A stretch of 64,000 bases of DNA from Symbiodinium sp. CCMP2592 (Eukaryota > Sar > Dinophyceae > Suessiales > Symbiodiniaceae). A model generated the notes under the pieces. It was not told where the DNA came from, searched no databases, and worked only from the letters and a program-made list of their open reading frames with translations. The DNA lies in NCBI GenBank assembly GCA_905221615.1, contig CAJNDT010005914.1, positions 716,183 to 780,182 on the forward strand. Direction: 5' to 3'. The stretch's first letter is position 1, and every line of letters begins with the position of its first letter. Positions 22,782-42,140 of the stretch are shown here, piece after piece. A program made the position numbers and the translations under genes.

Positions 22782-22956
22782 ACGGTTTGAGAAGTCGACC
22801 GCCTTTTTCCGCACAATCGACTTCCACGGTTTGAGCAGTCGACCGCCTTTTCCGCACAATCGACTTCCACGGTTTGAGCAGTCGACCGCCTGATTCTGCA
22901 CAATCGACTTCCACGGTTTGAGCAGTCGACCGCCTGATTCTGCACAATCGAGTTCC
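22782..22956 (+). repeat. Tandem array, four units of 43-44 bp, each with one GTCGACCGCC
   Basis: Units begin with ACGGTTTGAG or its variant at 22782, 22826, 22869 and 22913. Each contains AGTCGACCGCC and ends CACAATCGACTTCC. Units 1-2 share a T-rich middle (CCTTTTTCCGC / CCTTTTCCGC), and units 3-4 share CCTGATTCTGC. The array is the left edge of the GACCG-dense block, and every unit carries exactly one copy of its motif. Confidence 0.9.
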
Positions 22957-22965
22957 TAGCTCGGG

Positions 22966-23024
22966 GTGCAGCCCAGAAGAAAAAAGAGCTCGAGCCTCGA
23001 GCTCTTTTTTCTTCTGGGCTGCAC
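22966..23024. repeat. Perfect 29-bp palindrome with 1-nt centre
   Basis: The left arm 22966-22994 (GTGCAGCCCAGAAGA...GAGCTCGAG) and right arm 22996-23024 are exact reverse complements. It lies 10 bp after the tandem array. It would form a very strong DNA cruciform or RNA hairpin, with A/T runs inside the stem. A 3'-end or terminator role for the methyltransferase gene 0.8 kb upstream on the minus strand is conceivable but unproven. Confidence 0.9.
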
Positions 23025-23402
23025 TGACGCCGTCAAGGCCACATGATGGACCGGCTGAGTGAAAACAACGCCTAACATGAACTTAAAATACTGTTTCGTT
23101 TGCGCTCCACCATAAGGCCACGGCAAGCTGAGCGCCGAGACCGAAGTCGACCGGCGAGCTCAGGAATGCACCGGGACGGAAGTCGACCGGCAAGCGATGT
23201 GGTCACCCCAGTGCTTCAATGTCTACGACCGTTGTCAAGGCCATCTCCGAACCTGGCGGCCGGTCCATCGGCTTGTGGTTGAGACGATTGGCCCAATCGT
23301 CCAGCCGCATGATGGACCGGCTGTGTGAAAACAACGCCTATAACATGAACTCAACTTTTTCAATGACATGACCTTGACATCAGCATGTCGAACATGCTCG
23401 GT

Positions 23403-23459
23403 CAAGCAGTTCAACGAGAAGGCTCTGTAGGCTACAGAGCCTTCTCGTTGAGCTGCTTG
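23403..23459. repeat. 28-bp palindrome, one mismatch
   Basis: The arms 23403-23430 and 23432-23459 (CAAGCAG...GGCTCTGTAG) match at 27 of 28 positions around a single base. It is the second strong hairpin downstream of the methyltransferase stop codon. Confidence 0.9.
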
Positions 23460-23463
23460 GGAA

Positions 23464-23524
23464 CCGTGGGGCAGCTCCAATGCGAACACCTCTCAGAGGG
23501 ATTCGCATTCGAGCTGCCCCACGG
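23464..23524. repeat. 23-bp inverted repeat with nested hairpin
   Basis: CCGTGGGGCAGCTCCAATGC... (23464-23486) pairs with 23502-23524 with one mismatch. The 15-nt loop itself contains CCTCT/AGAGG. It stands 4 bp from the preceding palindrome. Confidence 0.85.
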
Positions 23525-23841
23525 CTCCAGAACTCCTTTGTACACTCAGGAGGCACGCAAAGTGAAGATTCAGCGAAGCTGAAGGACCGGCACTGTGTCT
23601 GGTCTTCCAACCAGCAGCCACGGACCATTTGGACGGCATGGTCGTACCATGTCATCCACCTGGTCGACCTGCTCTCAGAGGAGGGCTCACCACGTCTGCC
23701 TGGCAATGAGCAAACGACATTAATTAAGATTGACTGAAAATAGGCACGACCGACGTGGCACAGGATGAATCATGGAGCAAGTGTGCCAATCAGATATTGG
23801 GCATTGCACCACACTGCATTTTTTTTTAACCGCACTGTTCT

Positions 23842-25418
23842 TCAACGCGTACAGGCCAAGGCGACCGCCAACATTACTCCACAGTTGGCCACATGCATTC
23901 CGTTGCCGACCTGCTGTCGGTTGGGCTGCCCCAGGACCCCATAGTTCATTGCCATTGCTGCTGCCATTTCGACCGGCAGAAGCCATCGGCTCAAACCATC
24001 CACCCAAATTTTCGTATTCGTGCGGAAAGTTGGCAAGCGACCATCTTTTGTAGTCATCTTAAGGAAACGTGCAGGGTTTTGGCTGAGATCAAAGACCGGC
24101 TCCTGCTCTTTGTCAGACCTGCACTGCTGCCAAGTTTCACGGTACTTTGCCAAGTATTTCTGCTGCTGCCCAGTCAGCAGACATTCCCACGACCGGCTTG
24201 GCGTCTGCACCATGTCTAAACCCTTTGCTCTGCGACAGAAGTTCTCCTCTTCTAGAGTCTCCTCGACCGACCCTATGTAACAATCTCTGATGGACAGTCC
24301 ACCACCGACGGAATTGAAGAAGCTTGTCACGAAATGGTAGACCGTCGGGATATCGGCAACCGACGCTCTCGACCGATGTACTAGCACGGAATATACCCGT
24401 GGTCGATTCACACAGGTGAAGCCCACATGGTGTGGCTCGACCCGCAAGTGATGAATGACATACTTTTCCTGCATGAGATCCTCCAGGACCGACGTGGGAA
24501 AGCCAGACACGTTTTCGTGCAGTATGACCGGCGGCTCCTGCTTCAACATAAGGGCTGCCCATAGCAGGAGAAGGTCAGACCGACCGTCGGTCCAGCGCCT
24601 CTTCTGTCCAGCTCTCGACCATGGCTGGCATGGGCTACCGCTGATGTCGACCGTCACGGGTGGTGGCCGGCATGCAACATGACACCGACATATTCTTGGG
24701 ACGTTGGCGGCTGCTCTCTTGGCCAGTGCCCACCGCTCTGCGACCGGCCGGTCAGGACCTAGCATTTCCAGAGTCGGAAAGGCATCCCTGATATCTCCAA
24801 AGACATGCTCCGACCGACCCATCAAAAGATTCTGGCAGGCCCGTGATAAGTCACACGCAGACACGAACTGCAGAGTCGATCTTTTGGCGACCGCCCGCGT
24901 GGTGAACTTACACAGAAGAAGTTCTTGGAAGGCCTTGTGCACACGCTCGACCGCCTGCTCAGCACATCCAACACCTGAGAAATGTGTACTGACACGGATT
25001 GGGCCAGCCAGCATGGAACCTGGTCAGGGTGCTCAGAAACTGATAACGATTATTATTACTATTGCTCTGATAATGATAACTTATTAGCATTATGACGATT
25101 GCAAGAATAATTAATAAACGGTTCTTAATCGATGGGTTTCACAACAGCCATGCCTTGAAGTTGCTTGACCGACAAAATACGACTTAAAGCAATCATCGTG
25201 ATCTCAGGCCACTGCTTGGCACCTGCCATGCCGCTGCCAAAATTTGCGACCGGCGTCGCATTTGCCTGGTCCACGTCAATATCTGGCATATCTGACGCCG
25301 GAAGAGACTCCGACCCACTCTCATCCGGCGACCAGCTCTTCAAGCTTTCGCTGCCTGAACATATCTGGAGGTCGACCGACATGGACTCAGACTCCGAAAG
25401 GAGCTCCATCTGCTCCAT
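23842..25418 (-). CDS. C5-cytosine DNA methyltransferase, two exons
   Basis: The catalytic exon 23842-25019 contains the DNMT motifs in order: motif I FSGVGCAE for AdoMet binding, motif IV GSPCQPWS with the catalytic Cys, motif VI ENV, a VNRPRVYSVLV segment near motif VIII, and motif X QVGNGMHV near the end. It would methylate cytosine C5 in nuclear DNA. Exon 1 (25154-25418) gives an acidic Ser/Asp-rich N-terminus starting MEQMELL, with an in-frame stop four codons upstream. Removing 25020-25153 as a GC-AG intron (CAAG|GC ... CCAG|GT) keeps the frame and gives about 480 aa. No chromatin-reader domain is visible. No RT is fused to it, unlike the DNMT-bearing retrotransposons reported from Symbiodinium. 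It lies about 80 bp downstream of transposase-like exons in the same direction. Confidence 0.85.
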
Positions 25419-25500
25419 GTCTAAAGTCTAGTCTCAAGTGAAGTTCTCATGTATATTATAGGTATGATGATACGCTGATGCTGCCGTGCAATGGCTTTGT

Positions 25501-25982
25501 TCAGTCCCAAGGCTTGTTGCTCCCTGACACGACCACGGCTGCAAGAAACTCTCTAAGTGATGTGTAGTCGATGATGCTATAAGAGCTGAAGCACAGCTGG
25601 CAAGTCAGACAGACAGAGTCAAGCAGAAGGCCATGCCATCGTGACAGCATCGCCTTGTGATCGACCGACAAAGGGCTTACACATCGCCTCGTTGTCTTTC
25701 TTTCAGTGGCAGCGACCAGCACGGCAACCACGGCCTGGGCCACATGAGCTCATCACAGGACGGTCAGGTTACTAAAGAAGGTCTGAGCTTCCAACATGCC
25801 ACCAGCTGGAGATGCAAAGCAACTCGGATCCACGATCGCCCGGCAGTGCCGGACAGTCGTGGGCCAGGGTTGCTTCGGATCTTCATCTTATGGCATTGAC
25901 CGGCCTGCTTGACTGAAGATAACATGTGAGAGAAATCAGGAGGAGTGCAGCAAACAAACAGCTGGGGGTCCGACGAGACCAC
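25501..25982 (-). CDS. Unrecognised exon(s), possible 3' end of the hAT-like gene
   Basis: Two open stretches (25764-25982 and 25501-25743) lie between the hAT-like exons and the methyltransferase start. One carries VSPLSVDHKAMLSRWHGLL, the other a Cys-containing stretch. No domain is recognised. A stop follows SNKPWD at 25501. They may be terminal exons of the upstream gene or non-coding sequence. GACCG copies occur here at lower density than further right. Confidence 0.25.
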
Positions 25983-25990
25983 TGAAGCAC

Positions 25991-26471
25991 CTAGTGCCCA
26001 ACCTGAAGAACCACTTTGCTGACAGCAAAATGGTTCTGCAGCTTGGGCACCATGATGGCCTGGTGCTTTGCAAAAGACATGATCACCAACCGAGCTAGTG
26101 CTTCATATGCAACACACGGCCCAGTCCTTTGTGCAGCAGTGACCGGCGATCCAGTCATGGCCTGGGTGACGTGACTCACTCGAAAAGTGACCGAGCTAGA
26201 TCTTGGTACACAAATGCAGTGTTCACAACATCGTCGGCATTTTTTCTCAGCAGCGACCAGCTCACTTCCAAAGCTTAGCCCGACTGGCTTGGTACTTCTT
26301 GCCATCCTCTGATTCCAGCCACTCTTTCAAGTAGTCTCTCATAACAGAGGAGGCGACCGACTTCTGCTGAGCGTGCAGGACCTGCACTGAGGTTGGCAGC
26401 AGTTGCACTTTCCTTGGCTCTCTGGTCCTTCCAGGCAACTTGAATACTGTAGAGTTGTATTTTTTTAACAA
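25991..26471 (-). CDS. Exon(s) of tentative hAT-like transposase gene, C-terminal part
   Basis: The open frame starting near 26452 reads FKLPGRTREPRKVQLLP, then SSVMRDYLKEWLESEDGKKY, and continues in an overlapping frame with STKPVGLSFGSELV and a CRRCCEHC cluster. The YLKEWLES.GK pattern is plant/algal-protein-like, but no catalytic motif is present. Its acceptor ACAG|TA at about 26452 is in phase with donor GGCG|GTTC at about 26557 of the preceding exon, giving an A/T-rich intron of about 105 nt. The frame change within the stretch may be another small intron. Confidence 0.35.
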
Positions 26472-26533
26472 TTAAGTTGATTCCTTACATTTGATTAGTA
26501 CATGTCATGATTGAGTCAAATAATAAACTAATA

Positions 26534-26878
26534 CTATGTGCAGGCTGATGAACCGCCAACGACCGCCTTCTGCACAGCTTGCTGGAGAACATCAGGAAGA
26601 TCACACGGCAATGACGAAGAATGTTGCTGCTGAATGTTCCTCAAGACGACCGACAATCCACCATCGATGTCTTGTGGGAGCAGTGGATCCAGCAGTTCTG
26701 CCATGTACTGACGGCTGTGCCCAGAAAGCTCTTCAAACGACCGTCCAGACAGACGCACAGCATTGTTCTTCTGGCGGATCTGCTCAGTGGGTCCTCCTCC
26801 TCGGGCGCGTTTGCGGACCGACATGATCGACCGGCAGACTGCAGCTTTGAGGATTTCATCGCGGTCCGAGCCCAGCAT
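26534..26878 (-). CDS. Exon of tentative hAT-like gene (GSDRDE segment)
   Basis: The open frame can be extended upstream to about 26895 (EAQGGLHMLGSDRDE). It contains LGSDRDEILKAAVCRSIM followed by a basic stretch SVRKRARGG and Gln/Leu-rich helices. From memory, a GSxRDE block follows the dimerisation region in algal hAT-like proteins; this is weak support. Three GACCG copies lie in it in different frames. Confidence 0.35.
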   Translation of the reverse strand: MLGSDRDEILKAAVCRSIMSVRKRARGGGPTEQIRQKNNAVRLSGRSFEELSGHSRQYMAELLDPLLPQDIDGGLSVVLRNIQQQHSSSLPCDLPDVLQQAVQKAVVGGSSACT

Positions 26879-26933
26879 GTGCAGCCCACCTTGGGCCTCA
26901 GACAGGCAATTTCAGGCTCGTGTTTTTCTCTGT

Positions 26934-27278
26934 CTAATCAAAAATACATTGAATAATTGATGAATCAACACTAGAACTAAACAAATACTTTACTATGTGT
27001 TTCCAGAGATCCAAGAGCAGGCGATCGACCGCCTGTGCCGGGGTAAGACCAGCACAGGCATCGTACTGGTAATTCATTATGGAACCCAGGCGCTCGATGG
27101 CAGCTTCAGGTGCTGCCAGCAGCCGAGTACGATGATGCAAGCGACCGACATGCCAGCACTTTGGGTCTGTTCTGCATCGACCAACTGTAAACCAAGGATG
27201 TGCTTCCAAGGATCTAGCGATTGCCACAGAATCAACCGAGACCTTCATTTCGGTCACAACCACCAAGCGCTTAGCCAA
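26934..27278 (-). CDS. Exon of tentative hAT-like gene, dimerisation-region-like
   Basis: The sequence SVAIARSLEAHPWFTVG followed by APEAAIERLGSIMNY and LTPAQAVDRLLLDLW resembles the hAT C-terminal dimerisation region (S-E-x-x-x-E-R...S pattern and a terminal L-x-L helix). The likeness is by pattern only. The frame runs on into A/T-rich sequence after LLLDLW, so the true exon end is probably a donor just there (G|GA or G|GT candidates). Confidence 0.4.
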   Translation of the reverse strand: MAKRLVVVTEMKVSVDSVAIARSLEAHPWFTVGRCRTDPKCWHVGRLHHRTRLLAAPEAAIERLGSIMNYQYDACAGLTPAQAVDRLLLDLWKHIVKYLFSSSVDSSIIQCIFD

Positions 27279-27573
27279 GATACCAGACTTCCTCAGACCG
27301 ACAATAGATATGGACGCATATATATTGTCAGCAAAGGAAGTCTGGGATCTTGGCTAGGCTGAATCTGAAATGCAGACCGGTGGCAGCACCGCCACGAGTC
27401 CCTTTGTGGGAACTATGACCGCCCCTGTCTTTCTGCGTTTCCGTCTGTTTACAGTGAGACTTCCGACCTGCGCGAGTCCTCAGAACTATGATAAGGGAAA
27501 CACAAACCAAATGCTGTTGCATTCCATTTCCAACAATCATGCAGAACACTCCACTCCAACCTGTATTAATTGA

Positions 27574-28461
27574 TCATGTCTTTACTAATAAATAATTACA
27601 ACTGAATGAATATTGCAAGCGACCGTCGCTGGCAACCTGGAAAGTCTCATACGCAGACACAGGCAGCTGCTGCTGTTGGTACGATCCCAAACAAAGTGAA
27701 ACGACAGACGCACAATACAGCTGTCCAGCTCTTGAAGCATAGGGCATTTTCTGCTGCACGATGGCCGCCACAGCGGAGAAGACCATGACCGGCCGCACAG
27801 TGCAAGCAGTAACGGAAAACCATGATTTAGCCTCTGCTCTGATGACCGGCGGCACCCGACAGTCCTTCCCAAATGCTGCTGCAAGAACACGAGAAAGGAA
27901 CAGTCTATATTGTGCCTTCATGTCTTCGACCGGCAAATACCATCGATGTTCGACACCTTGAAACTCAGGGCCCGTGGGCCAAAGTGTGTGCCTTAGGACC
28001 GGCCTGAGTGCCTGATACAGTTTCAGGAAAGCATCTCCGTGCCGAGGTTGGGCTCGACCGCCGATCAACCCTTCCCAGTCAAACGCAATCATTGCATTGG
28101 ACCGGATCTGCAAGACATCATCATTGACACCGACCGGCCCGAGAATTTGCGACATCTCCTCTGTGGCACGACCGGCGAGCGTCTTTGCACTGTCCAGTGC
28201 TTGAATCACATCATGGTGCACGATATAAACCTTCTCTGGGATGACACACCGCGACCGCCATTTGCATACACAACGACCGGCCTGTGCCCAAGTGGATTCT
28301 GCGTGTTCGCAACCATCGGTCCGATCCTCCCACAAATGTTGACGAAATCGACGAGCTTCTTGTCTTCCAAGCTGCCGTGTTCGACTACGAAACTGAACAC
28401 GTGGCTCGTAGAAGTCATCTTGCAACGAAGCTCGACCGTCAGCCCACACCGGCACACGCAC
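27574..28461 (-). CDS. Large unrecognised exon, 295 codons, tentative hAT-like gene
   Basis: It has protein-like composition throughout, with Trp/Tyr-rich blocks (MIAFDWEGLIGG, PEFQGVEHRWYLPVED, YRLFLSRVLAAAFGKD). The first 60 residues are Arg-rich and may be intronic or out of frame. The end (YSFSCNYLLVKT) is A/T-rich and probably read-through into an intron. Twelve or so GACCG copies fall in all frames. No domain is recognised with confidence. Its position between hAT-like exons suggests a middle region of that protein. Confidence 0.4.
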   Translation of the reverse strand: MRVPVWADGRASLQDDFYEPRVQFRSRTRQLGRQEARRFRQHLWEDRTDGCEHAESTWAQAGRCVCKWRSRCVIPEKVYIVHHDVIQALDSAKTLAGRATEEMSQILGPVGVNDDVLQIRSNAMIAFDWEGLIGGRAQPRHGDAFLKLYQALRPVLRHTLWPTGPEFQGVEHRWYLPVEDMKAQYRLFLSRVLAAAFGKDCRVPPVIRAEAKSWFSVTACTVRPVMVFSAVAAIVQQKMPYASRAGQLYCASVVSLCLGSYQQQQLPVSAYETFQVASDGRLQYSFSCNYLLVKT

Positions 28462-28590
28462 CTTGAAGGGTGTGTTTCATGTTTAATGATTTAAGGTTGG
28501 GCGGCAGGGGCTTCATCTCTCTGAGACAGACGAAGAGAATGAATGAAGTAACACCAAAACTCCGACCGCCCGACCAGAAACATCAGCATG

Positions 28591-29334
28591 TCACGCCTCA
28601 CGGGTTCCACGTGGTCCATCCCAGTTCACAACTGGCCTCGGCCTCGTCTCAGAATATTTCTCCCTGCCCAGACATTGGCAATGTGGGCCCAAGCAATAGT
28701 ATTCGACCGACGGCTCTCTGCTGGTGTGCAATGTAACCGACGAGAACTCTGGCGGCAGTACATGCATTATCTTCATGATTCCAGGAAGAAACTTTGGCAA
28801 AAAGCGACCAGCTGGTGTGTAGCAAAGGGCTGCAAGAAACTGCATGATCTGCTTGCTGGAACAGTGCTGGCGCAACAAGGTGGCGACCGTCACGTAGGTC
28901 TTCAGTCTGTCGATGGAGGTGCTTGCTCGTCTGGCGTACTGCAGCGATCTCTCTGCACTTGCTTGCAGTTTTGAAGGTTCGACCGCCTTTTGGGCCACCT
29001 GAGAAAAAGCTTCGAAGGCGACCGGCATGAAGTTTTCCAAGAAAGATAGGAACACCACAAAGCTCACGTCTGTCAAACGGCGACCGACGTCCATCAAATT
29101 TCTCAGACTTCGGGCTCCGTGCTTTTGCTGCTTCCAAGCCAGTCTTGCATGCATAGCGGTGACGACCGGCCTGAAATTCTTCAAAAGCGACAAACGGAAA
29201 AATACAAACATCCGTGTTCCGCCAGGTGCTCCCAGGGTGCCGACCGGCTCACCAATTTGTTTCGAAACTCCTCGCAGCAAGGCCCGACCGTCGCCCATGA
29301 AAAAGGTCTTGTCCAAAACAGATACGATGTCCAT
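28591..29334 (-). CDS. Exon of tentative hAT-superfamily transposase-like protein, core region
   Basis: The 247-codon exon reads MDIVSVLDKTFFMGDGRALL, then APGGTRMFVFFRLSLLKNF, then LMDVGRRLTDVSFVVFLSFL. A TR-[aromatic] step followed by paired amphipathic helices and a long helical C-terminus is the pattern of the hAT/KIAA1586-like transposase core. I judge this by pattern only, without alignment. The upstream exon 29465-29752 ends TDWGLMHREA, and an intron of about 130 nt with A/T-rich middle separates them. It could be a domesticated gene. Confidence 0.4.
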   Translation of the reverse strand: MDIVSVLDKTFFMGDGRALLRGVSKQIGEPVGTLGAPGGTRMFVFFRLSLLKNFRPVVTAMHARLAWKQQKHGARSLRNLMDVGRRLTDVSFVVFLSFLENFMPVAFEAFSQVAQKAVEPSKLQASAERSLQYARRASTSIDRLKTYVTVATLLRQHCSSKQIMQFLAALCYTPAGRFLPKFLPGIMKIMHVLPPEFSSVTLHTSREPSVEYYCLGPHCQCLGREKYSETRPRPVVNWDGPRGTREA

Positions 29335-29464
29335 AACTTCTGTAGCTGCATCGACAGACTTGATTGACCGATCCAGTGCGGTTTGTTCCTTCGTAGTTCG
29401 ACCAACAGTGTGTACATATTACAATTGAACATATCGTTTGATTATCACAACTATTGCTTTGTAG

Positions 29465-29752
29465 CTATGCTTCACGGTGCATCAGGCCCCAGTCCGTCAT
29501 GACCGGCACAGGGTCTCCATCCCAAACAGAATTGAAAACTTCAGACCATATCAGTTCCGCCGAAGCTGTGCTCTTGTGCCGAGCCAACCGACCACCCATG
29601 GCATTGGCGCCATCGCCGACAACCATGGCTAAAGATGCCGCCAGTGACCGGCTGCTAAAATGGGCAGGGTGCTCCTCCAGAATCTCCAACGCGACCTTCT
29701 TCAATTGTGGGCCTGCATGATCACCGACACCCAAAGTCTTCCCGCCAACCAT
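29465..29752 (-). CDS. Exon of tentative hAT-like gene (GDGANAMGG segment)
   Basis: Coding-like throughout: LKKVALEILEEHPAHF, then VVGDGANAMGGRLARHKS, then a Trp-rich block ending TDWGLMHREA. A GDG...RH.S...A..LW arrangement before an aromatic TDW.L.HR step is what I remember of dinoflagellate hAT-like proteins. Treat it as a weak lead. A/T-rich sequence lies on both sides (29400-29460, 29775-29815). Confidence 0.4.
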   Translation of the reverse strand: MVGGKTLGVGDHAGPQLKKVALEILEEHPAHFSSRSLAASLAMVVGDGANAMGGRLARHKSTASAELIWSEVFNSVWDGDPVPVMTDWGLMHREA

Positions 29753-30026
29753 CGGTGTGTAAGCACGACCTGTGGCAAATTATTAGTTGTTAATTTATTC
29801 TATGAAAAAATAGATAGAAGACACAAAGGTGACCGGCTAGTGCCATGATGCTTTGGACATGAAGAGGAAGCCTGTGCTTTGGCTCACGACCGACAGTCCG
29901 ACCAGCAACTCATTGTCCCGCTTCAGCATTTGTTCTTTGCCAATGGAGATGGAGTCCAACATGACACCTTGCTTAGTGAGATGAGCCACATCACTGATTC
30001 ACACACACAGTTGCAGCATCGACTGT

Positions 30027-30422
30027 CTAATCTGGCGGCAAAGCACAGAAGTCGCTTGGAATGCCTAGGCCAACGACCAGCCGTTGAAAATCCATCGCAT
30101 CCAAATTCTGCAATGCCCTGGCGGCATAGAACTCCACCTCGCGGCAGAACGACCGGCTGCAAGGCCAATGGCCCAATTGCACTCCACGCCGGCGGTTCCT
30201 CTCGGCATCTCTTTCAAAAGAGAGGAAGGACCGGCCTTCGGATGCGTTGGAAAGGCAAATGTCGACTACTGTGTCCAGTGACAGCTCCTTGTCGACCGAC
30301 ACGGCCTTCTGTTTCCTTTGTATACCCTCCTTCTCTTTCTCTTTGAGCTTCTCGCGTTCAAACTCTTCAAGCTTCGACCGGCTCTGCATGGATCGTTCTA
30401 CGCTGGTGGTTCCCAAACCCAA
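30027..30422 (-). CDS. Unrecognised exon with charged coiled-coil segment
   Basis: It contains EEFEREKLKEKEKEGIQRKQ (a strongly charged helix, likely coiled coil) and then AARALQNLDAMDFQRLVVGLG. The stretch 30181-30260 may be in a different frame. It lies upstream of the hAT-like exons in the same direction and may be their N-terminal part. No family is recognised. Confidence 0.35.
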   Translation of the reverse strand: MGLGTTSVERSMQSRSKLEEFEREKLKEKEKEGIQRKQKAVSVDKELSLDTVVDICLSNASEGRSFLSFERDAERNRRRGVQLGHWPCSRSFCREVEFYAARALQNLDAMDFQRLVVGLGIPSDFCALPPD

Positions 30423-30512
30423 TAGAGCTGCTGCTACCCTTTCGACCAGTGATTTGCCAGCAAACTTCCTTTCAGGCAGCAGTTATTGTATTGAATCAAT
30501 TACTTAAATTAG

Positions 30513-30905
30513 TTAACTGAAATAATTTTGCAGATGATAATTGATAAACCTATAAAATATTGGATTTGGAAGACCCAGCCTGACCGGCATGTATTTCATC
30601 ACGGCCGACAAGACGTCTTTCGGGCAGCGCTGAAGGTTGGTCATGACATTGACCGACAAAACTTGGCCTTGGCCTTGCAAGGCAGCATGTCTGTCCACGA
30701 ACGTACCACAGTTCTCCCCTGGTCGCCAAAGGCGACCGTCGACTTCATCTTCGACCGGCATTTCGGCTTCGCTGTCAGAAACACTGGGTTCGGATGCAGC
30801 ATCGGCTGACGAGGAATCAAAGTTTTGTGTGCAAGCGACCGACTTGGAGGTTTCTGACCTTAAAGAAGGCACAAACTCCTCGTCAGACATGGCTCCGTCA
30901 GACAT
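30513..30905 (-). CDS. Unrecognised acidic exon, 130 codons
   Basis: It starts MSDGAMSDEEFVPSL and is Ser/Glu/Asp-rich for 60 residues, then has a compact region (CPKDVLSAVMKYMPVRLGL). An acidic N-terminus like this could be the 5' end of the 25.5-30.9 kb gene. The last residues run into A/T-rich sequence at 30485-30550, an intron candidate. Confidence 0.35.
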   Translation of the reverse strand: MSDGAMSDEEFVPSLRSETSKSVACTQNFDSSSADAASEPSVSDSEAEMPVEDEVDGRLWRPGENCGTFVDRHAALQGQGQVLSVNVMTNLQRCPKDVLSAVMKYMPVRLGLPNPIFYRFINYHLQNYFS

Positions 30906-31476
30906 GGCTCTTATGGATGGCGATCAACTCTACCCCAGCAAAGGTTCATGGGGTGCGTTTTGGGTGAGGTGTGCTGGCCAAACTGCTTTACTGATTCCTG
31001 ATGTCTGTCAGTTCTGGAGAATGAGATGACGTCCAGGCACAGTTGCATCAAGCACTTCGGTTGCCTGTCTGACAAACACTGGGAAGCCCTGGCTGGGTGA
31101 CTGACTGAGAAACTGTGCAAAGTCCAAGAACACTTTTCTCAGCTTCACCTTTCACATCTCACAATACGGCTCTTAGTCTCAATGTGATGGATGCTGGGAC
31201 CCTGGCAAGGCCTTGGCGACCGGCTGGCATGATGCGCGAAGTCAAGAACATTTTGTGCACCTCCAGTCTGATACTGGCTCTTGAATTGTCCTCTCTGCAA
31301 GTGTTGCCAGTTGAATGAAAAGCTTCTGGGCAAATAGCGGGGATGGAACTGCTCTCCACTGTCATCGGACAGAGAACCTGAGCAGGGTGAAATGACATTT
31401 GTGGTGTCATCATCAGAATCAGAATCGACACATCTTCCACCATGAACCATTTTTCTGATGCTGCCACAGAGCCCCA

Positions 31477-31710: not shown

Positions 31711-31748
31711 CTTAACATGCGGATAGTTATAGTTGTCAGCGACCGACT

Positions 31749-32630: not shown

Positions 32631-32650
32631 GCAATGGACTCGACAGCAAC

Positions 32651-33130: not shown

Positions 33131-33228
33131 GTCATTGTAGTTGGCAACCGACTTGTTGATACCTCAGTTCGGAATTGCACACGTCCTATCATAATCGATC
33201 AATGCATGACATGAAGGTCAGTCAGAAC

Positions 33229-33796
33229 TCAAGCCAAAACACCATTTCGCCAGGTGCTCTCGACCGGAATCTCCAACAGCTTGAACACTGAGCCCTCTGC
33301 TGCATAGGGGGTAAAGACCGGCACACACGGGATGTCTGTCACCTTGCGCTTCAAGTTCAATGACCGGCTAGCTTCATCCAGTTTCAGGGCGGTGCACATG
33401 TCGTCGAGCAAGACTCGGCCATGTGCCATGGAGTGCCTGAGCTTAACATGCATTCCTGCGAAAAGCTTTTGGTTGACACACGTTTCATGCTTTGTCGGCA
33501 AGATGCTCGACCGGCCCACGAACCATACCTATGACTGTGGAGACGACCGACTGGACCCCAACGAAGATGGAAGGATGGGCTGTGCGTGTGGAGACCGCCA
33601 TCCACCTGCACTGATCACCACGGAAGACTTCTCGCACGACCGACGCATGGTGATCCCAGCATTTGGCCACCAACCACAAATCCACAGGATACTTCTTGTC
33701 GACGGACGCTTCGACCGCCTGTGTGTCAGGACCGGCTTCCTCTGTGGTGTCCAACGTCTTGCTATCCTCTGGCTGCTCTTGGTCACTGACCGGCAA
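33229..33796 (-). CDS. Unrecognised exon pair
   Basis: Two overlapping frames, 33485-33796 (SVDKKYPVDLWLVAKCWDHH, then VVREVFRGDQCRWMAVSTRT) and 33229-33519 (LRHSMAHGRVLLDDMCTALK, then VPVFTPYAAEGSVFKLLEIP), both look coding. The frame switches near 33500, where AG|GTATGG is a candidate donor. No family is recognised. The first exon starts with an acidic Glu/Asp-rich stretch. Confidence 0.4.
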
Positions 33797-33840
33797 CTCC
33801 TCCCAGATTCAGTAAAGTGATTGATGACGTCCACATCAAA

Positions 33841-33955
33841 CCCTGAACTGCACCTGGACTGCACCTGAACTGCACCTGAATGGCACCAATATAGAAAACC
33901 TCATCACCTGAACTGCACCTGAACTGCACCTGAACTGCACCTGACCTGCACCTGC
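33841..33955 (+). repeat. 11-bp minisatellite (CTGAACTGCAC)n, two arrays
   Basis: Repeats of CTGAACTGCAC with minor variants occupy 33843-33885 and 33906-33955, separated by an A/T-containing spacer beginning CAATATAGAAAA. The same 11-mer with a similar CAATCTATAA spacer recurs at 41379-41478. Short ORFs through it are not genes. The adjoining 33956-34090 has no feature I can support. Confidence 0.9.
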
Positions 33956-34091
33956 CGCCCTGCCCCCCACAAAGGTCCTCTGTGGGATGGGCCGGCATGT
34001 CTGTCATGGGTTTGCACGGCCTGAGCTTGCCTCAGTAGGAGTGTGGGTTAGTGTGGGCAGTGGGGCCATTAGTCTAGTTTCAAGGATTCTT

Positions 34092-34439
34092 TTAATTTAA
34101 TTCAAAGGCACAATTGTAGTCGGTGCAGCGCATCTGTAACTTCTCATAGGCAAATGACCGGCATTTGTTGACAGTCACATGGCTCGGCACCACCTCCTTC
34201 GCAGAGACCGACAACTCCGACTGTGAATAGACCATGTAAGTCGGGCGACGATTCCGGGACTGTTCTGGACCGGCAGTGAAGGTGATGACGTACGCCTCAC
34301 GGTTTGGGATCATCGTCTGCAGCTGGTTCCTTAGCTGTAGTGTTGCATCGACCGACCAATTGGATTGTCGCACCCCAAAACTTGCACTGACCACGATTGC
34401 CACTGCAGATGCTTTAAATCTTTTTTTGGCTTCCTGCAT
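34092..34439 (-). CDS. Unrecognised exon, 115 codons
   Basis: It reads MQEAKKRFKASAVAIVVSA, TLQLRNQLQTMIPNREAYVI and SVSAKEVVPSHVTVNKCRSF. Composition is protein-like up to about residue 105, after which it is probably intronic. It lies just downstream of the kinase gene on the same strand. No family is recognised. Confidence 0.35.
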   Translation of the reverse strand: MQEAKKRFKASAVAIVVSASFGVRQSNWSVDATLQLRNQLQTMIPNREAYVITFTAGPEQSRNRRPTYMVYSQSELSVSAKEVVPSHVTVNKCRSFAYEKLQMRCTDYNCAFELN

Positions 34440-34479
34440 GCCCCTTCACACAGAAATTTGACACCCGACTACTGGCGGT

Positions 34480-35818
34480 TCAACGACCAGCGTGGTGTCT
34501 GTACTTCTCCTCTGCAGCAATAATGAAAAGCCTCAGCTGCTGTCGCTCGTTCGGCAGCTTTTTCAAGAAAGCTCTTATGTCTTCTTGAGCGCCAGAGACG
34601 ACCGGCACGTTCTTATCAATTCGGGAATTGATGAAGGACATGTCATACAGCACCTTCACTGTGACAAACAAATGACACAGTGTCGATGTTGTGAAGATCG
34701 CAAACAAGAGACACCCGACCGCCCAAAGATCAGCTGTGGGTGCCAACCTCACCCTTACAGCAAAGCTACGACCGGGTTCCTGTGACCCGCTAAGCTCCGG
34801 AGGTCTGTACGCTGCAGAGTACACCTCGTCACCATAGACAGCTGTCCCGACCGGCTCAGTGAGGCCGAAGTCTGCCCAGCGGGCTCGAACATGGGGGGCA
34901 GGACCGACAAGTATGTTCTGTGGCTTCACATCACAGTGCACAAGCTTGTGACAGTGCAGATACTGGAGTCCATGTGCAAGATCGACCATCAGATGCCATT
35001 TGTGTGGGCACTTTGCGGCCTTGGGCTGCGTCTTCAGCCAAGCGTCCAATGTCACCGGCACATACTCCAAAAGAAGGCCCACGAGACCTCCGTCGACCGA
35101 CATGACTGGCCCATAACAATGCAGGATGGCTGGGTGGCGTAGACTGAGGAGAACGTCTAGCTCCCTCTTCACGTCCCTGCTGCCGACCGGCAACCTCGAC
35201 ATGACAAGATGCAGCACTAAACCCAAAGTCGACAAAGACATCATTCGTTCATTCATTCATGATTGTTCAATCGCATGAACCTTAATAATAAAATGAATAG
35301 CCAAGATGCTTCACTGCGAACTCCGTTCCCATCAAGTTTTCACAGCGGTAAACTGTGCCATGGGCGCCTTGTCCCAGGGTCGACCGACTGGAAAGTGCCA
35401 TGCCTTCAAAGGAGAACCTCAATTCATTGACGAGGTTCTCATCGACCGGTGGCTGCTGGTCACTATCATTCTCAGGCTTCGGGTCTCTGACCGGCGAGTC
35501 GACTTCCACTGGAGGATGAGCGAGCTCCCTCTTGAGGGCGTTGTGCTTTCTGTGATCCTTGACCGCCGCGTCCACAAAGGGTTGTTTCTCCTTTTTTGAC
35601 ATCTGCTTCCATCGCGACCGGCTCTGATCTAAGTTTTTCAAGAAGGTTTTGACTCGAAGGCGCTTCAATGGAGGGTCGACCGTCCCTGTCCTGGCGACCG
35701 TCGCACAGTAACGGGCATAGGGCCCTGCCACCCTCTTCAGCCCGAGGCTTTTGTTACTGATTCGACCCATGAAGGTCGACCGGCCGTTTTGGACTTGAGC
35801 CGAAGCAACGCTGAGCAC
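34480..35818 (-). CDS. HMG-box protein kinase, two exons
   Basis: Exon 1 (35302-35818) encodes an HMG-box-like segment (residues about 27-105: KRVAGPYARYC ... SRSRWKQMSKKEKQPFVDAA). An acidic linker and the kinase glycine loop and lysine (LGQGAHGTVYRCENL, FAVKHL) follow. Exon 2 (34480-35216) continues with the alpha-C helix VKRELDVLLSLRHP, catalytic loop HCDVKPQN, DFG motif ADFGLTEP and RPPEL. Removing 35217-35301 as a GC-AG intron (CTTG|GC ... TTTAG|TG) keeps the frame and joins the N-lobe correctly. The kinase C-lobe after GCLLFAIF is short and unusual and may hide another intron before the stop at 34480. The catalytic residues K, D, N and DFG are present, so activity is plausible. HMG plus kinase in one chain is uncommon. 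Confidence 0.7.
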
Positions 35819-36429
35819 AGCAGTCGACCGACAAGTCTAGAAAGAACTCTGTGCCATCCAAGGTTCACGACCAACGTCACTAAGTCGTGGCGCTTTCCAC
35901 AGAAGATGCCCATGGACACGTGTTGCCGATCTACGACCGACGTGACGACCTTCCACAACTCTGCCATGTCCCCCAAAATGATCTTGGCCTTCGACGTGGC
36001 CTCATCGATGTAAATGCCGCCACGGGTCGTCGCCCGGCATAGACCGACGAAGCCATCACCAAAGGTCTTCATGTCATGAAACAGATGAATGTTGGAGCGG
36101 ACCGACAAGCCGAGCTCCTCAGCTTTTTCAAGAACAGGATCCTTCTCCACCAGTGGGGCCTCCATCGTGATGTCGTCAGCCAAGATCCCAGACTCGTCGT
36201 CTCCCCCCTCAACGACCAGCTTGTGCTCTGTGACCGTTGCTTTGGCCGCATCCACAGCACTTTCGGCTTCATCCACTGCACGACCAGCGGCCAGATTCTT
36301 CAACCCTTGGAGGACCGACACACACTCAGGGATGCCACTGCCCTCGATCTTCGGGTCACCAGACAGACCGACGCCAAGACGCATGCACGTCCTTGGCAAC
36401 CCCATCACCAAAATAATGAGACATGGCAC
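35737..36429 (-). CDS. Unrecognised exon, 230 codons
   Basis: Protein-like throughout: a helical Ala/Glu-rich stretch (AVDEAESAVDAAKATVTEHK), then an acidic segment. A compact region follows: NIHLFHDMKTFGDGFVGLCR, GGIYIDEATSKAKIILGDMA, VDRQHVSMGIFCGKRHDLV. The 3' end overlaps the kinase exon start in another frame, so its donor must lie upstream of about 35820. No family is recognised. It is possibly the preceding part of the same gene. Confidence 0.45.
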   Translation of the reverse strand: MPCLIILVMGLPRTCMRLGVGLSGDPKIEGSGIPECVSVLQGLKNLAAGRAVDEAESAVDAAKATVTEHKLVVEGGDDESGILADDITMEAPLVEKDPVLEKAEELGLSVRSNIHLFHDMKTFGDGFVGLCRATTRGGIYIDEATSKAKIILGDMAELWKVVTSVVDRQHVSMGIFCGKRHDLVTLVVNLGWHRVLSRLVGRLLCSALLRLKSKTAGRPSWVESVTKASG

Positions 36430-36584
36430 TGAATGTCAGTTATAGTTCATAGTGCTAGCAAGCCTCAAAATGCGCGACCGTCCACGCTCACTCCACAGCA
36501 TCTTCTGACAGCGGTCATACGCTGGTAGGCGGCTCACGACCGACGAGTATTTCTTCATGACCAACTGACACCACAACTGTGCCT

Positions 36585-36986
36585 TCAACATTGGGGCACA
36601 AAAGTCAGACATGAAGGTCGGTATGGAAGAGACCGTCCCGCGACCGTCACAGAAGTCATAGAAAAGCTGCAGAGCAGCAAGCTGCTGCTCGGGTTCCAGG
36701 AGGAAGCCTGAGCCAACTGCATTCCGCGACCAACAATGCAGGGAAACCTAACAGCATGGCATGCCGCCGAGTTACGTGTCTCTTCTCCTTGACCGACGAA
36801 GTACTTGTTCGTGAAAACAAGTCCCTGTGGCAGGTCGGGCTTCTCCTTCAGCTTGATCAGGACCGGCTCTTTTAACACTGCAGTCGCTTTGCACCAGTTG
36901 TGGATTGTTGACCGGCGTGACTTGCCCAAAATTTCCACCATGGCGTTCTCGGCGTCCTGACAGATGAGACTCAGGGCCAGCAACAA
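36585..36986 (-). CDS. Unrecognised exon, 133 codons
   Basis: The N-terminal 60 residues look coding (LLALSLICQDAENAMVEILG, STIHNWCKATAVLKEPVLIK). After NKYFVGQGEETRN the frame becomes Cys/Ser-rich and is probably intronic. A helix-turn-helix-like reading of the first part (MVEILGKSRRSTIHNWCK) is tempting but too short to call. Confidence 0.35.
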   Translation of the reverse strand: MLLALSLICQDAENAMVEILGKSRRSTIHNWCKATAVLKEPVLIKLKEKPDLPQGLVFTNKYFVGQGEETRNSAACHAVRFPCIVGRGMQLAQASSWNPSSSLLLCSFSMTSVTVAGRSLPYRPSCLTFVPQC

Positions 36987-37536
36987 AAACAGGTGGTCGA
37001 CCGACTGTCCTTTATCAGACCGCCAGGAACTTTGGCGACATAAGCACGCACAAGTTTGATCTTGTGCTCGACCGACGTCGTCCGCAACTTGTTGGCCTCC
37101 TGCTCATGGGCCATGGTGTAGAAGAGCTTGACCGCCGCCTGACACAGGAGTAACTAGTGACCGTCATGAGTGTCTAGTCATACTGCACATCCCTGGCCTC
37201 ATCATCATCCAAGAATTTGATGCAATCAAAACGCATTCCGACCGTCAGAATGTCCTTGATCTCACCTGTGTACCACTCGAGCTGCGTTGCATCATCGGAC
37301 TGAGCGACCGTCTCAGCAGCTTTCCTCGGTCAGAAAGTAATTTAAAATTAAGGGAAATGAAAACCGTGGACTTCGACCGACTCTTTTCTGACCAGCTGAC
37401 AAACCAGTGCACACCAGAACGTGGAATTGGACCGACAAACTACACGTCGTCAAGTATCTTCAACGCTGCGATACAGTGCTTGCCATCTGCCAGCTTCGAC
37501 CGGCCATCAGATGCGGCCATAGGACGACCAGCAGGA

Positions 37537-38016
37537 TCATACCTGCGAAACCCAAGAGTGAACTACCAAGCACGAGAAAATAAACTTTTCGACTGGCCTC
37601 AGCTTCGGTCGGGACAACGAAGCCTGGCCCCAACGACCGGCCAAAATCACCTTCTCATACAACTCCAGGACACGATCCTCATCGACGTCCCGATGGCCGG
37701 AATCATGGGCGACCGACACGTCGTCAAGCTTTAAGAGCTTGCTCTCCACGTAGACCGGCGCGTAAGCAGGAGTGCCTGCTTTCTTGGACATGGCTCGACC
37801 GGCCGACTTGGTTCGGAACCCCGAGGATCGGTTGCTAAGGCTTGTAAGCCCAAACTCCAGGTAGGCAACGGCACGACCGACACTCAGAGATGTGCTTCCA
37901 AGATCATCGACCGGCCTGCCGATGTTGAACCCACAAGATAGGCCCACAAGGCTTAGCAACCTATTCTGCTGGTTCAACTGGAAGAGCATGCACGACCGGC
38001 TAAGGTGCTGCAACAT
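37537..38016 (-). CDS. Unrecognised exon, 159 codons
   Basis: It contains LFQLNQQNRLLSLVGLSCGF, a Ser/Gly-rich middle and SKKAGTPAYAPVYVESKLLK, then AHDSGHRDVDEDRVLELYEK. The segment TPAYAPVYVESKLLKLDDV...DEDRVLELYEKVILAGR resembles a protein-kinase C-lobe APE-like step, but no catalytic loop is seen. The segment 38030-38600 downstream of it on + has only scattered GACCG copies and no ORF I would call. Confidence 0.35.
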   Translation of the reverse strand: MLQHLSRSCMLFQLNQQNRLLSLVGLSCGFNIGRPVDDLGSTSLSVGRAVAYLEFGLTSLSNRSSGFRTKSAGRAMSKKAGTPAYAPVYVESKLLKLDDVSVAHDSGHRDVDEDRVLELYEKVILAGRWGQASLSRPKLRPVEKFIFSCLVVHSWVSQV

Positions 38017-38652
38017 ATGTGTCAGAGTGGGACCGACCTAGGACGATGCAGCACTAGACCGACTTTAACCCCCAAGATAGGACCACAAGCCTTAGCAAAG
38101 CATCCTTTGGGTTCAACTTAGTGAAGGCATGTATTCAACCTTGGAGGTCATCTCTGGCTCGGGCTGTCGACCGATGTCTGAACTGGTAACTTGGGGCTAC
38201 AAGCCTTAGCAACCGATCCTGGGGGGTCCGAACCAAATGCAGCCCAGAGTGGATTCCAAAGCATGTGCCATGCGCTGGAATGCACCATGGACCGCCAGGC
38301 TGGCATGCATTGTGCTACCAAGTCAACAACTTGACTACATGACAGAACCAACAGGTAACAAACAAAGTCAGGTATGCTGCACTCAATCTCGAACACTAAG
38401 TCGACTGGCATGCCCTCTCACGTGCTTCACATTTTAAACACATGTCTCGCTGGCTGCTGAAACCGACAGACGACTGTGGCTCTATGCACACATGTCATGG
38501 CCGACAGCTGGCAGGACAGGCTGCATCTGGCATTCAGAAAACACTATCGTCATGATCATGATGGTCTGTCATTATTTGACCGACAACTGCCAGGGCCAGC
38601 CTGCCTGCTAGAGTGAGGAAAAAGGCCTTTGACTCGACCGGCGTGGTGGACA

Positions 38653-39024
38653 TCAGCTAGACTCAGCGACCTGGTCCATGACGAGCGGCTGCTTTGTCTT
38701 GCCTGCAACATCTTCCTCGACCGACTCCATGACGAGTGGCTGCTTTGTCTTGCCCGCCAGATCCTCGACCGACACCGTTGTCTTGCCCGCCAGATCCACG
38801 ACCGACTCTTTGGCGAGCATCTCATCCATTTCTGCGACCAGCTTCTTCTGTATCGCGAGCAGAGTTGACGACCGACTGTTCAGCTCCTCCAACTCTTTAT
38901 CGTTCTGGTACATGTATTCTTTCAGCGTCTCGAGGTTCTTTAACTTCACGAAGTCACCGACCGGCACCTTGTTGCTGAACTGAACCATGACCTTGTACTC
39001 CGCGGCGACCGACTCAACGCCCAT
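38653..39024 (-). CDS. Unrecognised exon with coiled coil and DLAGKT repeats
   Basis: Upstream of the ATG the frame stays open as DYYYAPTLPQ, so the exon likely starts at CTCAG|GAC near 39059. Residues 1-75 are protein-like with a helical coiled-coil-prone stretch (LKEYMYQNDKELEELNSRSS). Residues 75-123 contain three short repeats around (D/V)AGKT, two followed by KQPLVM. At DNA level these are tandem duplications, and two of them lie immediately beside a GACCGAC motif. Confidence 0.45.
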   Translation of the reverse strand: MGVESVAAEYKVMVQFSNKVPVGDFVKLKNLETLKEYMYQNDKELEELNSRSSTLLAIQKKLVAEMDEMLAKESVVDLAGKTTVSVEDLAGKTKQPLVMESVEEDVAGKTKQPLVMDQVAESS

Positions 39025-39116
39025 CTGGGGAAGCGTCGGCGCGTAGTAGTAGTCCTGAGCAGACAGCTTATGCTGTAGATTGCAACTGCAGGATTAGAAA
39101 TCATGCAACTGCAACA

Positions 39117-39353
39117 TCACTGAATCGAATGCCACCAAAGCACACAGACCGGCGACATGCTTTCATCATAGTGAAGGAGTCCAGCTGGAAGCATGCCCAC
39201 TCCATAGTAGCTCAGCCGCACATCGACCGCCGTGCCGCCACCTGCCAGCCAACACATCAGCGCAGCCTTCGTCGGGTTACTGAAATACATATATCCAGTG
39301 CCACCCCGACCGACTGTGGAGGAAGGCCGCTTTTGCCCTCGGGGCTTGTTCAT
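39117..39353 (-). CDS. Unrecognised exon, 78 codons
   Basis: It reads GGTGYMYFSNPTKAALMCWL, DVRLSYYGVGMLPAGLLHYD and ESMSPVCVLWW. It is coding-like until MSP. Joining CCG|GTCTGT as donor to CTCAG|GAC near 39059 gives ...ESMSP-DYYYAPTLPQMGVESV in frame, so it probably precedes exon 38653-39024 in one gene. The donor would lie inside a GCCGGTC motif copy. Confidence 0.45.
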   Translation of the reverse strand: MNKPRGQKRPSSTVGRGGTGYMYFSNPTKAALMCWLAGGGTAVDVRLSYYGVGMLPAGLLHYDESMSPVCVLWWHSIQ

Positions 39354-40027
39354 GCTGTAGCTAGCTTCTTCACGACCGACAGCTCCGTCACATCATCGGA
39401 GATCTTGTAGAACACGAAAGCAGGCTTGTCGACCGGCACGTCACTTGGCAACGCCTCCACCTCGAGGCGGGCGTCCATGCGTGTGACTTTGAGGTGCTTC
39501 TCGACCGACAAGTCGAGGTTCCTCACGACGAAGCCGTCGTTGGTGCATGGTCTGACCGACCCTTGTTCCATAGCCAGTTGGAACTCATCGACCTGCACTT
39601 CCAGCACGACCACGAACCGGGTCAACAGAAGTTTGACCTCATCTTCCCGACCGGCATTATCAGTAACACACATGATTGTGCCCCCAGCCGAAACACGATG
39701 GGCCTGCTCCTTGTGCTTCGACCGTTGGTACATCGGCCCCGGAATGGGATCCGTGTCGGAAAGCTGGTATTGCATCCTGACCGACCGGGCAGTTCAGAAC
39801 TAAGGACGACCTACACTACTGCATCCTCGCTGGTCATGATAAATGAACTGAAACACAGCAGCAAGGCACCTGCGACCGACACCAGCGATAGCCTTATACA
39901 CAGCGACCGACGGGGAGAAATAGGCCTGGACGTCGGGAACTGGGTTCCAGAGCCAGTGCTCCCACTGGTCGACCGACAGTCCGACATAACCTGTCTTGGC
40001 CATAGCGACGGGGAGTGGGGCCGGCAA
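39350..40027 (-). CDS. 5'-proximal exons of unrecognised gene (GT-AG intron 39777-39869)
   Basis: Exon a (39870-40027) starts MPAPLPVAMAKTGYVGLSVD, then HWLWNPVPDVQAYFSPSVAV and AGVGR. Exon b (39350-39776) reads MQYQLSDTDPIPGPMYQRSK, then a globular stretch (LLLTRFVVVLEVQVDEFQLA, EALPSDVPVDKPAFVFYKIS). The intron CGCAG|GTGCC...TCAG|GATG is in phase (codon AGG split 2+1). On the coding strand both splice sites directly follow a CGGTC (GTCGGTCGCAG|GT and GGTCGGTCAG|G). No family is recognised. This is the most upstream coding signal of the block. Confidence 0.45.
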
Positions 40028-40412
40028 GTCTCGTGAAGCTGAAATTGCTTTGTGGCATGGCAGGCATCATAGACATAGACCGACTGTGACTGTGCCCAAC
40101 AACTGCAGGTAACCAATGAGGACCAGGCCAACCGGCACCCGCTGATCAGACATCATAGAGCTGGAGTCCAGTTCTATGGTGTCTGACCAGATGGTGATGG
40201 TAGGCGACCGACCTTGGCAAATATGAATCATGAAGTCATAGCTAGTTACAGTATCCAAAGCACGCTGCCCACGCATGTGTCTGAGAACACCACCGGCAAG
40301 GAAAGTAGATCTGCTTCTGTCTGGACCTCAATACTTAAGGTGACTGGGATCTCAAATTGGCATGGACCTGTTACTGCTACAGGAGCCCGACCTCCCAGAG
40401 CATCCAAGGAGC

Positions 40413-40487
40413 TCCTCAACCCTTCGTCGGCGCCACTCAGCCGGTCGTAGTTCGACTGGCTGAGCGGTGCCGACGAAGGGTTGAGGA
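40413..40487. repeat. 35-bp hairpin, copy A
   Basis: The arms 40413-40447 and 40453-40487 (TCCTCAACCCTTCGTCGGC...) pair with three mismatches around a 5-nt loop. Confidence 0.9.
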
Positions 40488-40831
40488 CACCTGTCGGTAG
40501 CTCTCCTCGACCGGCAACACTTCCTGACCAGGTGTTGCTAAGTCAATCATTACAGCAGTGTCCAGCATTATTGAATGCTGATCGACACTGAGGCCTGTAC
40601 CCTGAGCCATGAAGATTTACATTGGGTGGTCTGGGAGGTGATAGACCTTGAGCGAACACACACATAACACTTTCGAAAGTACACTGCCCACGCATGTGTC
40701 TGAGAACACCACCGGCAAAGAAAGTAGATCTGCTTCTGCCTGGACCTCAATACTTAAGGTGACTGGGATCTCAAATTGGCATGGACCTGTTACTGCTACA
40801 GGAGCCCGACCTCCCAGAGCATCCAAGGAGC

Positions 40832-40906
40832 TCCTCAACCCTTCGTCGGCGCCACTCAGCCAGTCGTAGTTCGACTGGCTGAGCGGTGCCGACGAAGGGT
40901 TGAGGA
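40832..40906. repeat. 35-bp hairpin, copy B
   Basis: It is the duplicate of the 40413 hairpin 419 bp away. One base in the stem differs (AGCCAGTCG against AGCCGGTCG), which restores a pair with the right arm GGCTG. Confidence 0.9.
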
Positions 40907-41051
40907 CACCTGTCGATAGCTCTCCTCGACCGGCAACACTTCCTGACCAGGTGTTGCTAAGTCAATCATTACAGCAGTGTCCAGCATTATTGAATGCTGA
41001 CCGACTCTGAGGCCTGTACCCTGAGCCATGAAGATTTAGATTGGGTGGTCT

Positions 41052-41101
41052 GGGAGGTGAGAGACCTGGACTGAAAATTTCAATCCAGGTCTATGCCTCC
41101 C
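41052..41101. repeat. Fold-back GGGAGG...CCTCCC with palindromic core
   Basis: The core AGACCTGGACTGAAA/ATTTCAATCCAGGTCT at 41062-41092 is an almost perfect palindrome, and GGGAGG/CCTCCC pairs outside it. It lies directly after the second tandem unit. Confidence 0.8.
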
Positions 41102-41195
41102 AGAGCACCCGAGGAGCTCGACCGGCAACACTTCCTGACCAGGTGTCGCCAAGATGTGGCAGAGAAGCTTTATGGATCAATCGGAGCACCTTGGC

Positions 41196-41218
41196 TATAA
41201 TATATATATATATATATG
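41196..41218. repeat. (TA)n microsatellite
   Basis: TATAATATATATATATATATATG. Low-complexity sequence. Confidence 0.9.
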
Positions 41219-41378
41219 TTGCAAGATAGTGACTGTCACTATCACTAGAGCCGATGTATTTAAGCCAAAACTGTTTGATGCTATGGTAAGTTCATTCGTG
41301 TCTTTTTTGTGTAATACAGCATACCTTTTACTATTTTATGATTTGTATACCTCACGTATGGTTGTGCAGCATCACCAC

Positions 41379-41478
41379 ACCTGACTGCACCTGAACTGCA
41401 CCTGAACTGCACCAATCTATAATAGCGCGAACGCTGAACTGCACCTGAACTGCACCTCAACTGCACCTGAACTGCACC
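41379..41478 (+). repeat. 11-bp minisatellite (CTGAACTGCAC)n, second locus
   Basis: Two short arrays of CTGAACTGCAC units are separated by CAATCTATAATAGCGCGAACG. It is the same unit and a similarly placed CAAT-A/T spacer as at 33841-33955, so the whole array-spacer-array structure is a dispersed repeat family. Confidence 0.9.
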
Positions 41479-41695
41479 AGCATTATCCTTGTTCATGGTT
41501 TCCCCCAGAAAGAATAAACAGAACAGACCGGCTAGTAGACCTTCTTGAATAATTAATTCCTACTAAGGGATATAGGTAAACTTATAGGGCTCTGTCTATT
41601 ATTTCTAAAAAGGACAAGCGTGAACTGCACTGGAACCTTTGTGAATCAAAGCATCAAACCCAGCAGTCCTCCTGGACTGTGTCAGACCGTCGCTC

Positions 41696-41752
41696 AGCCG
41701 AGGCCATTGGGGGATCTTGTCATTTTGACGAGATCCCCCGATGGCCTCGGCT
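41696..41752. repeat. 27-bp hairpin, two mismatches
   Basis: The arms 41696-41722 (AGCCGAGGCCATTGGGGGAT...) and 41726-41752 pair around TTT. It is the right-most of the long hairpins, about 390 bp from the end of the GACCG block. Confidence 0.9.
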
Positions 41753-42140
41753 AGCCTGGCTCAAGGTGCCAAACAATGCATCTTGACTTGGCTCTGTGAT
41801 CCTCAGATGAAACGTTGACTTAGTGCTGGACGACCGACTCGTCGCCGGGCCGGCCTGCCACGTCGGTGGTCTGTCCATCGGTCTGATTTATTTATGATTA
41901 CACCTCACGAATCCGCCTCATGCGGGACACTGACCGGCCCCATGTGAAGCTCTCGCCTTGGAGCAAAAAGTAGACAGGTAAATACCGGAACACCCACTGC
42001 ATCCAGGGATGTGGCAGGTCATGAAGATGTTGCCGAAAGCCTGTCCACGGGAAAATGCATCATTGCTGTAAACAAATGAGGTGGCACCCATGATGCATGA
42101 GCTGCACTTGTTTTGCCATCATTGCACGACCGTCGGTTTC

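Follow-up and report, generated by a model that had tools for sequence, protein, structure and literature searches.

A 64,000-nucleotide stretch of the Symbiodinium sp. CCMP2592 genome (GenBank assembly GCA_905221615.1, contig CAJNDT010005914.1, positions 716,183 to 780,182 of the forward strand; hereafter the window) was analysed. The block at 22728–42139 comprises most (the left two thirds) of a single copy of a DNA transposon of ~30.5 kb with 15 bp terminal inverted repeats (TIRs) and 5 bp target-site duplications (TSDs), and an oriented 7 bp word, (C)GACCGNC, runs along the whole length of this element. The orientation of the element was defined by the strand carrying GACCGNC; in the window, 191 of these words lie on the plus strand at 22797–42134 and read GNCGGTC on the sense strand of the genes. 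A sequence-only reading of the window had described a gene block with natural edges at a 44 bp array and a copia long terminal repeat (LTR). The block was instead found to be one copy of a dispersed ~30 kb TIR transposon, of which the array is the left subterminal region, and the copia element only cuts this copy. The sharp edges reported by that reading hold on the left, where the element starts at 22728, and fail on the right, where the C5 copy shows that the word continues past 42140.

The word was recounted across 22797–42131. GACCG occurs 206 times on the plus strand, 190 (92%) of these continue with NC, 121 (64%) of the 190 are preceded by C, and CGGTC occurs 13 times; the earlier hand count (about 207, over 90 percent, usually C and about a dozen, respectively) was reproduced. 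GACCGNC is distributed 191:5 between the plus and minus strands in 22728–42139 and 187:5 in 22957–42140; dinucleotide-preserving shuffles of the latter (n = 200) gave 5.7 ± 2.6 sites with a maximum of 15. Synonymous-codon shuffles of ten open stretches (2,033 codons) gave ~10 sites, the largest total being 19, compared with 78 in the real sequence; the extreme density of the oriented word is explained by neither composition nor codon use. One-base variants of GACCGNC each occur at most 22 times per strand, except for one variant overlapping the word. Because the word had been picked after inspection, 6-mers were ranked by their strand bias within each of 26 overlapping 19.2 kb windows; CGACCG in the block stood at 109:2 (z 10.2), compared with z 5.5 for the top word of the windows free of the element. 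The strongest bias outside the element was that of AGCATC (38:3, z 5.5, 19.2 kb window, ~120801–159600 in window coordinates; C5052, right of the window).

The words are spaced more evenly than random in the block (median 78 bp, Kolmogorov–Smirnov p 5.5e-8) and are under-dispersed in the C5 piece too (p 2.4e-10). A fixed periodicity was considered and rejected, none of any strength being found. The word is confined to the element: in the flanks (±100 kb) GACCGNC is at background, with 0 or 1 in most 2 kb bins (some bins are N runs). Genome-wide (1.098 Gb), CGACCGNC occurs 45,115 + 44,511 times and the commoner reversed-word control (CNGCCAGC-type) 124,942 + 126,074 times; the former corresponds to ~1 per 24 kb per strand, compared with ~1 per 160 bp inside the block, and the block is indeed unlike flanking or genome-average DNA, as had been proposed. 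A genome-wide gene signal was rejected as far as examined, the word staying at background both across the 200 kb around the block and within the copia frames, and being rare genome-wide.

The repeat starts at window position 22728 and at C5:141322, beyond which the flanks are unrelated, and the block aligns with C5:141322–160811 on the plus strand over 19,403 columns with 0.27% mismatch. The perfect 15 bp sequence CAGGGTTGAGCTGTA forms the left TIR (22728–22742, plus strand) and its inverse forms the right end on C33. Genome-wide, CAGGGTTGAGCTGTA was found 30 + 32 times and the reversed-word control 2 + 1 times; of these ends, 14 are unpaired and the others form 24 inverted pairs, each on one contig. 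The pairs span ~1.35 kb (four), 6.3 kb (one), 20 to 51 kb (18) and 80 kb (one), and our guess is that the longer spans result from nested insertions. The spans on C2257 (30,276 bp) and C4368 (30,485 bp) match the 30,556 bp obtained from the C5 piece plus the C33 tail. Of the 24 pairs, 14 were tested and all of these have an exact 5 bp TSD; they represent 13 sites because C1122 and C4954 show the same site in opposite orientations, and the TSD length of the C33 pair is ambiguous because the duplication lies in a T run. Matching TIRs on dispersed copies and a TSD of constant length, the hallmarks of a TIR DNA transposon, were thus both found.

In the window copy the left TSD is TAGAA (22723–22727) and its right partner is absent. 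The C2057 copy has TAGAA on both sides and the same left flank over the 22 bases shown, from which the two are probably alleles or duplicates. The insertion site at C33:260676–304383 spans 43.7 kb and appears to contain portions of two copies in the same orientation, and it has mutually inverse flanks, the insertion lying in a host palindrome. Samples of 3 kb from the C4368 and C2257 copies are 99.6–99.9% identical to C5 and, with the window copy only 0.27% different from C5, this near-identity indicates that the copies are young or duplicated. Contamination is not supported, since the TIR pairs are distributed over 24 contigs and have differing flanks. A genome-wide search with a clustered-word pattern gave 917 + 759 matches; the reversed control exceeded this (2775 + 3029), so that the number of matches alone proves nothing, and some of those listed (C10, C14) are simple repeats. 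Among the first 100 matches listed, the DNA of the window recurs on contigs C5 and C33.

Beyond the right edge of the window copy, the C5 copy has ~7 kb more word-bearing DNA up to an N run, and the end of the element on C33 lies ~4 kb past that run. The words number 251:7 in the C5 piece (26,637 bp, ending at the N run) and 45:0 in the C33 tail (3,919 bp), together 296:7 and covering the element. Ratios of 31:0 and 39:0 were obtained for the 3 kb samples of C4368 and C2257, and of 60:4 for a 6.3 kb deletion copy on C3190. Word-bearing arrays are present in both subterminal regions, where the word again points the same way. The left array (22775–22956, plus strand) consists of ~4 copies of a 44 bp unit with one word per unit, and a subterminal segment with two words (23128–23202, plus strand) has five similarly oriented relatives of 68–75 bp near the right end (positions 3463–4018 of the reversed C33 locus, 90–96% identical). 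Two long stretches without predicted coding sequence (C5:158334–162770 and 163270–165743) are also filled, at 48:1. Arrays of an 11 bp unit (CACCTGAACTG) were noted within the element at 33842–33954 and 41378–41478 and on the C33 tail too, as were near-perfect noncoding hairpins with arms of 27–35 bp near both block edges (22966–23024, 23403–23459, 23460–23528, 40413–40487 and 41696–41752).

A non-autonomous element of ~1.35–1.36 kb has the same 15 bp TIR and 5 bp TSD and a long internal inverted repeat (copies at C6:38104–39463, C4556:328307–329666 and C4954:1817–3165, the last being the C1122 site). GACCGNC is absent from the two 1.36 kb copies that were fully read, in which 13 would be expected at the density of the large element; as they are 99% alike, the two count as one independent case.

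Exons were predicted with a codon hidden Markov model (HMM) trained on nine open stretches of the block with the words masked. Every exon predicted in the block lies on the minus strand, as do the HMM calls in the right part of the element bar one low-complexity plus stretch. A C-5 cytosine DNA methyltransferase-like gene lies at 23842–25011 (minus strand; Pfam PF00145, E 6.5e-10), with readable PCQ, ENV and C-terminal GNG motifs and weak PDB matches to M.HaeIII and DNMT2. It is followed on the same strand by a predicted exon series at 26268–30923 with AT-rich introns lacking the word, by predicted exons at 31752–33808 (both of unassigned function, from the codon HMM and open stretches) and by protein kinase exons at 34483–35836 (Pfam PF00069, 91 bits; Aurora-type kinases in the PDB). 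An upstream exon of the last has an HMG-box-like stretch (HMG_box, 20 bits, below the Pfam cut-off of 25.4) and presumably belongs to one gene with the kinase exon.

In the minus frames of 22701–41500 and the six frames of piece L029 and of the right end in L032, where introns split genes, no Pfam match to a transposase, polymerase, integrase, capsid or packaging protein was found. PDB searches with two of the exons of unassigned function returned nothing meaningful and nothing, respectively, and the predicted structure of 28621–29391 was unusable (pLDDT 43). Three proteins had no relatives in viral_contigs, 8 kb of the block had no blastn match among phages, Rfam gave none in the window, and the search for a spliced-leader relic gave 4 matches with at most 3 mismatches where 3.3 were expected, which lends no support to the identity of the host.

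The use of the word in coding sequence was assessed on 19 predicted exons, which comprise 3,312 codons and include one internal stop. GNCGGTC fills 123 of the 190 places at which the amino acids permit it (26/48, 18/20 and 79/122 by frame); in the frames of the neighbouring copia retroelement the fraction is 6/104. Median filling by 59 permuted control words was 3.8%, and the top two of these, CNGGTCG (45/100) and CNGTCGG (21/107), both overlap the word core. The permitted places also outnumber those in shuffles (48, 20 and 122 by frame, compared with 17, 4 and 68), so the amino acids have shifted too. Of the 91 [STPA]V pairs in the ten open stretches, 60 take the spelling of the word, and SV and PV together number 68 versus 23 for VS and VP. 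The pattern in the exons thus arises through both codons and amino acids; selection as its cause is what we infer. A protein-level repeat was rejected because the word is used in all three frames. Four AT-rich introns contain no word.

The copia LTR that bounds this copy lies at 42140–42554 (minus strand). It belongs to a copia element at 42140–61817, the LTRs of which are only 87% alike and across which no target duplication is present; for these reasons the right flank of the transposon copy may be an assembly join. Regions 1–18900 and 42140–61817 are two copies of a very large copia-like element, 99.5% identical across 18.9 kb, the left of which stops at a 100-N run (18901–19000). The right copy has frames of 2,496 and 3,632 amino acids, and the element encodes RVT_2, a CCCH zinc finger, a weak aspartyl protease and a marginal Tpt1/KptA match. 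Host DNA beside the transposon (21652–21795, 63374–63741 and 20109–20500) contains CTA/TAG triplet arrays and degenerate CCCTAAA/TTTAGGG repeats.

The binding signal that had been among the earlier suggestions is plausible. We judge it somewhat better than an even chance that the word is a self-address, bound by an element-specific DNA-binding protein that would shield the element from host silencing. Such a protein, probably encoded by one of the exons of unassigned function, would dock on a word every ~50–90 bp along the element and, once bound, would protect the whole of it, together with its genes, in the way that VANC proteins do for VANDAL transposons. Selection for dense cover would have driven the word into the exons, mostly by codon choice and partly by amino-acid change. 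The fuller proposal, that the transposon recoded its own genes until about two thirds of the permitted places spelled one oriented word, so that a dedicated binder would have a continuous address of ~300 sites across 30 kb, is held more tentatively, at slightly under even confidence.

VANDAL (Mutator-type) transposons of Arabidopsis carry a family-specific, dense short motif in one orientation and encode VANC anti-silencing proteins, which bind this motif and remove methylation; these motifs are mainly noncoding and arise by tandem repeats, and the effects of VANC extend along the whole element (PMC5735166, PMC10398659). The present word is likewise family-specific, short, dense and of single orientation. 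It differs in being found in exons too, mostly singly and in all frames over ~30 kb, with arrays only in places; the TSD here is 5 bp, and a VANC-like protein was not recognised. hAT5 elements are described as hAT elements with 5 bp TSDs (PMC12730594). That duplication length is shared, whereas the element described here is ~30 kb, carries an element-wide word and has no transposase recognised in the frames scanned. The TIR begins with CAGGG, which resembles hAT ends. Polintons are giant eukaryotic transposons with cargo genes (PMC6431247). Size and cargo genes are common to both, but PolB, a retroviral-type integrase and capsid or packaging genes were not matched in the frames scanned. Bacterial uptake words and Chi are dispersed exact words, some of them in coding sequence, that are chromosome-wide and much sparser, whereas the present word is tied to one transposon family. 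A literature search for an overrepresented motif in a dinoflagellate genome gave no match, from which no wider claim of absence from print is made.

Several points weigh against the self-address. The word-binding protein is putative and its anti-silencing role is likewise inferred, and the element encodes a methyltransferase rather than a known demethylating factor. Word density is 12.4 per kb in predicted exons versus 6.8 outside, although VANC motifs are mainly noncoding. The arrays and the exon layout may account for some of the even spacing. Conservation of the word between the window and C5 is not demonstrable, as there are too few changes (1/1,143 word bases, 40/16,442 other bases and 12/1,628 other CpG bases). 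Finally, the ends of the 1.36 kb element past the TIR are only 84–89% like those of the large element, so that it may come from a sister family; this weakens, without removing, what its lack of the word suggests about end recognition.

It is rather unlikely that the word acts in RNA, with GNCGGUC on sense transcripts binding a protein or aiding the splicing, export or stability of element messages. Word and transcription would coincide in direction, since the exons predicted in the block share one strand, and density is higher in exons and nil in the four AT-rich introns, which composition alone could explain. The long stretches without predicted coding sequence are nevertheless filled, and arrays lie close to both ends, where mature RNA is less likely; words in untranslated stretches and in both subterminal arrays, all in the same direction, favour DNA over RNA. 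We regard it as improbable that the C-5 methyltransferase encoded by the element targets the word and so marks the element: the gene lies within the element and the word contains a CpG, yet such a target need be neither oriented nor evenly spaced, and methylated CpG would be expected to decay whereas the words are exact.

Little probability is likewise given to sites for an accessory protein of transposition. CACTA/En-Spm elements are large and have subterminal TNPA-type repeats bound by an element protein (PMC2613891), and the present element resembles them in its size and in the short repeated, word-bearing motifs near both ends. It differs in having CAGGG ends and a 5 bp TSD rather than CACTA ends and a 3 bp TSD, and in a word that is element-wide rather than subterminal; moreover, the word-free 1.36 kb element with the same TIR and TSD length suggests that the word is not needed for end recognition. 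That a mutational or conversion process and not selection writes the word is very improbable: permitted places are very highly filled in all frames, but such a process should fill unconstrained sequence most and density is lower outside exons, the spacing is even, and the word ends at the ends of the element. The earlier suggestion of a process inserting short words is disfavoured, since the exon words sit in open frames and track amino-acid permission.

If the word is a self-address, then an entire gene set shows, in its codons and amino acids alike, the visible imprint of selection for an address in DNA. The arms race between transposon and silencing would then be testable in a lineage in which the word is visible at the level of single bases, and the ~300 sites of the element would provide a natural array in which to study the coverage of a long locus by one protein. 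The case also shows that, in a large eukaryotic genome, a long block with unusual word content can prove to be one giant transposon.

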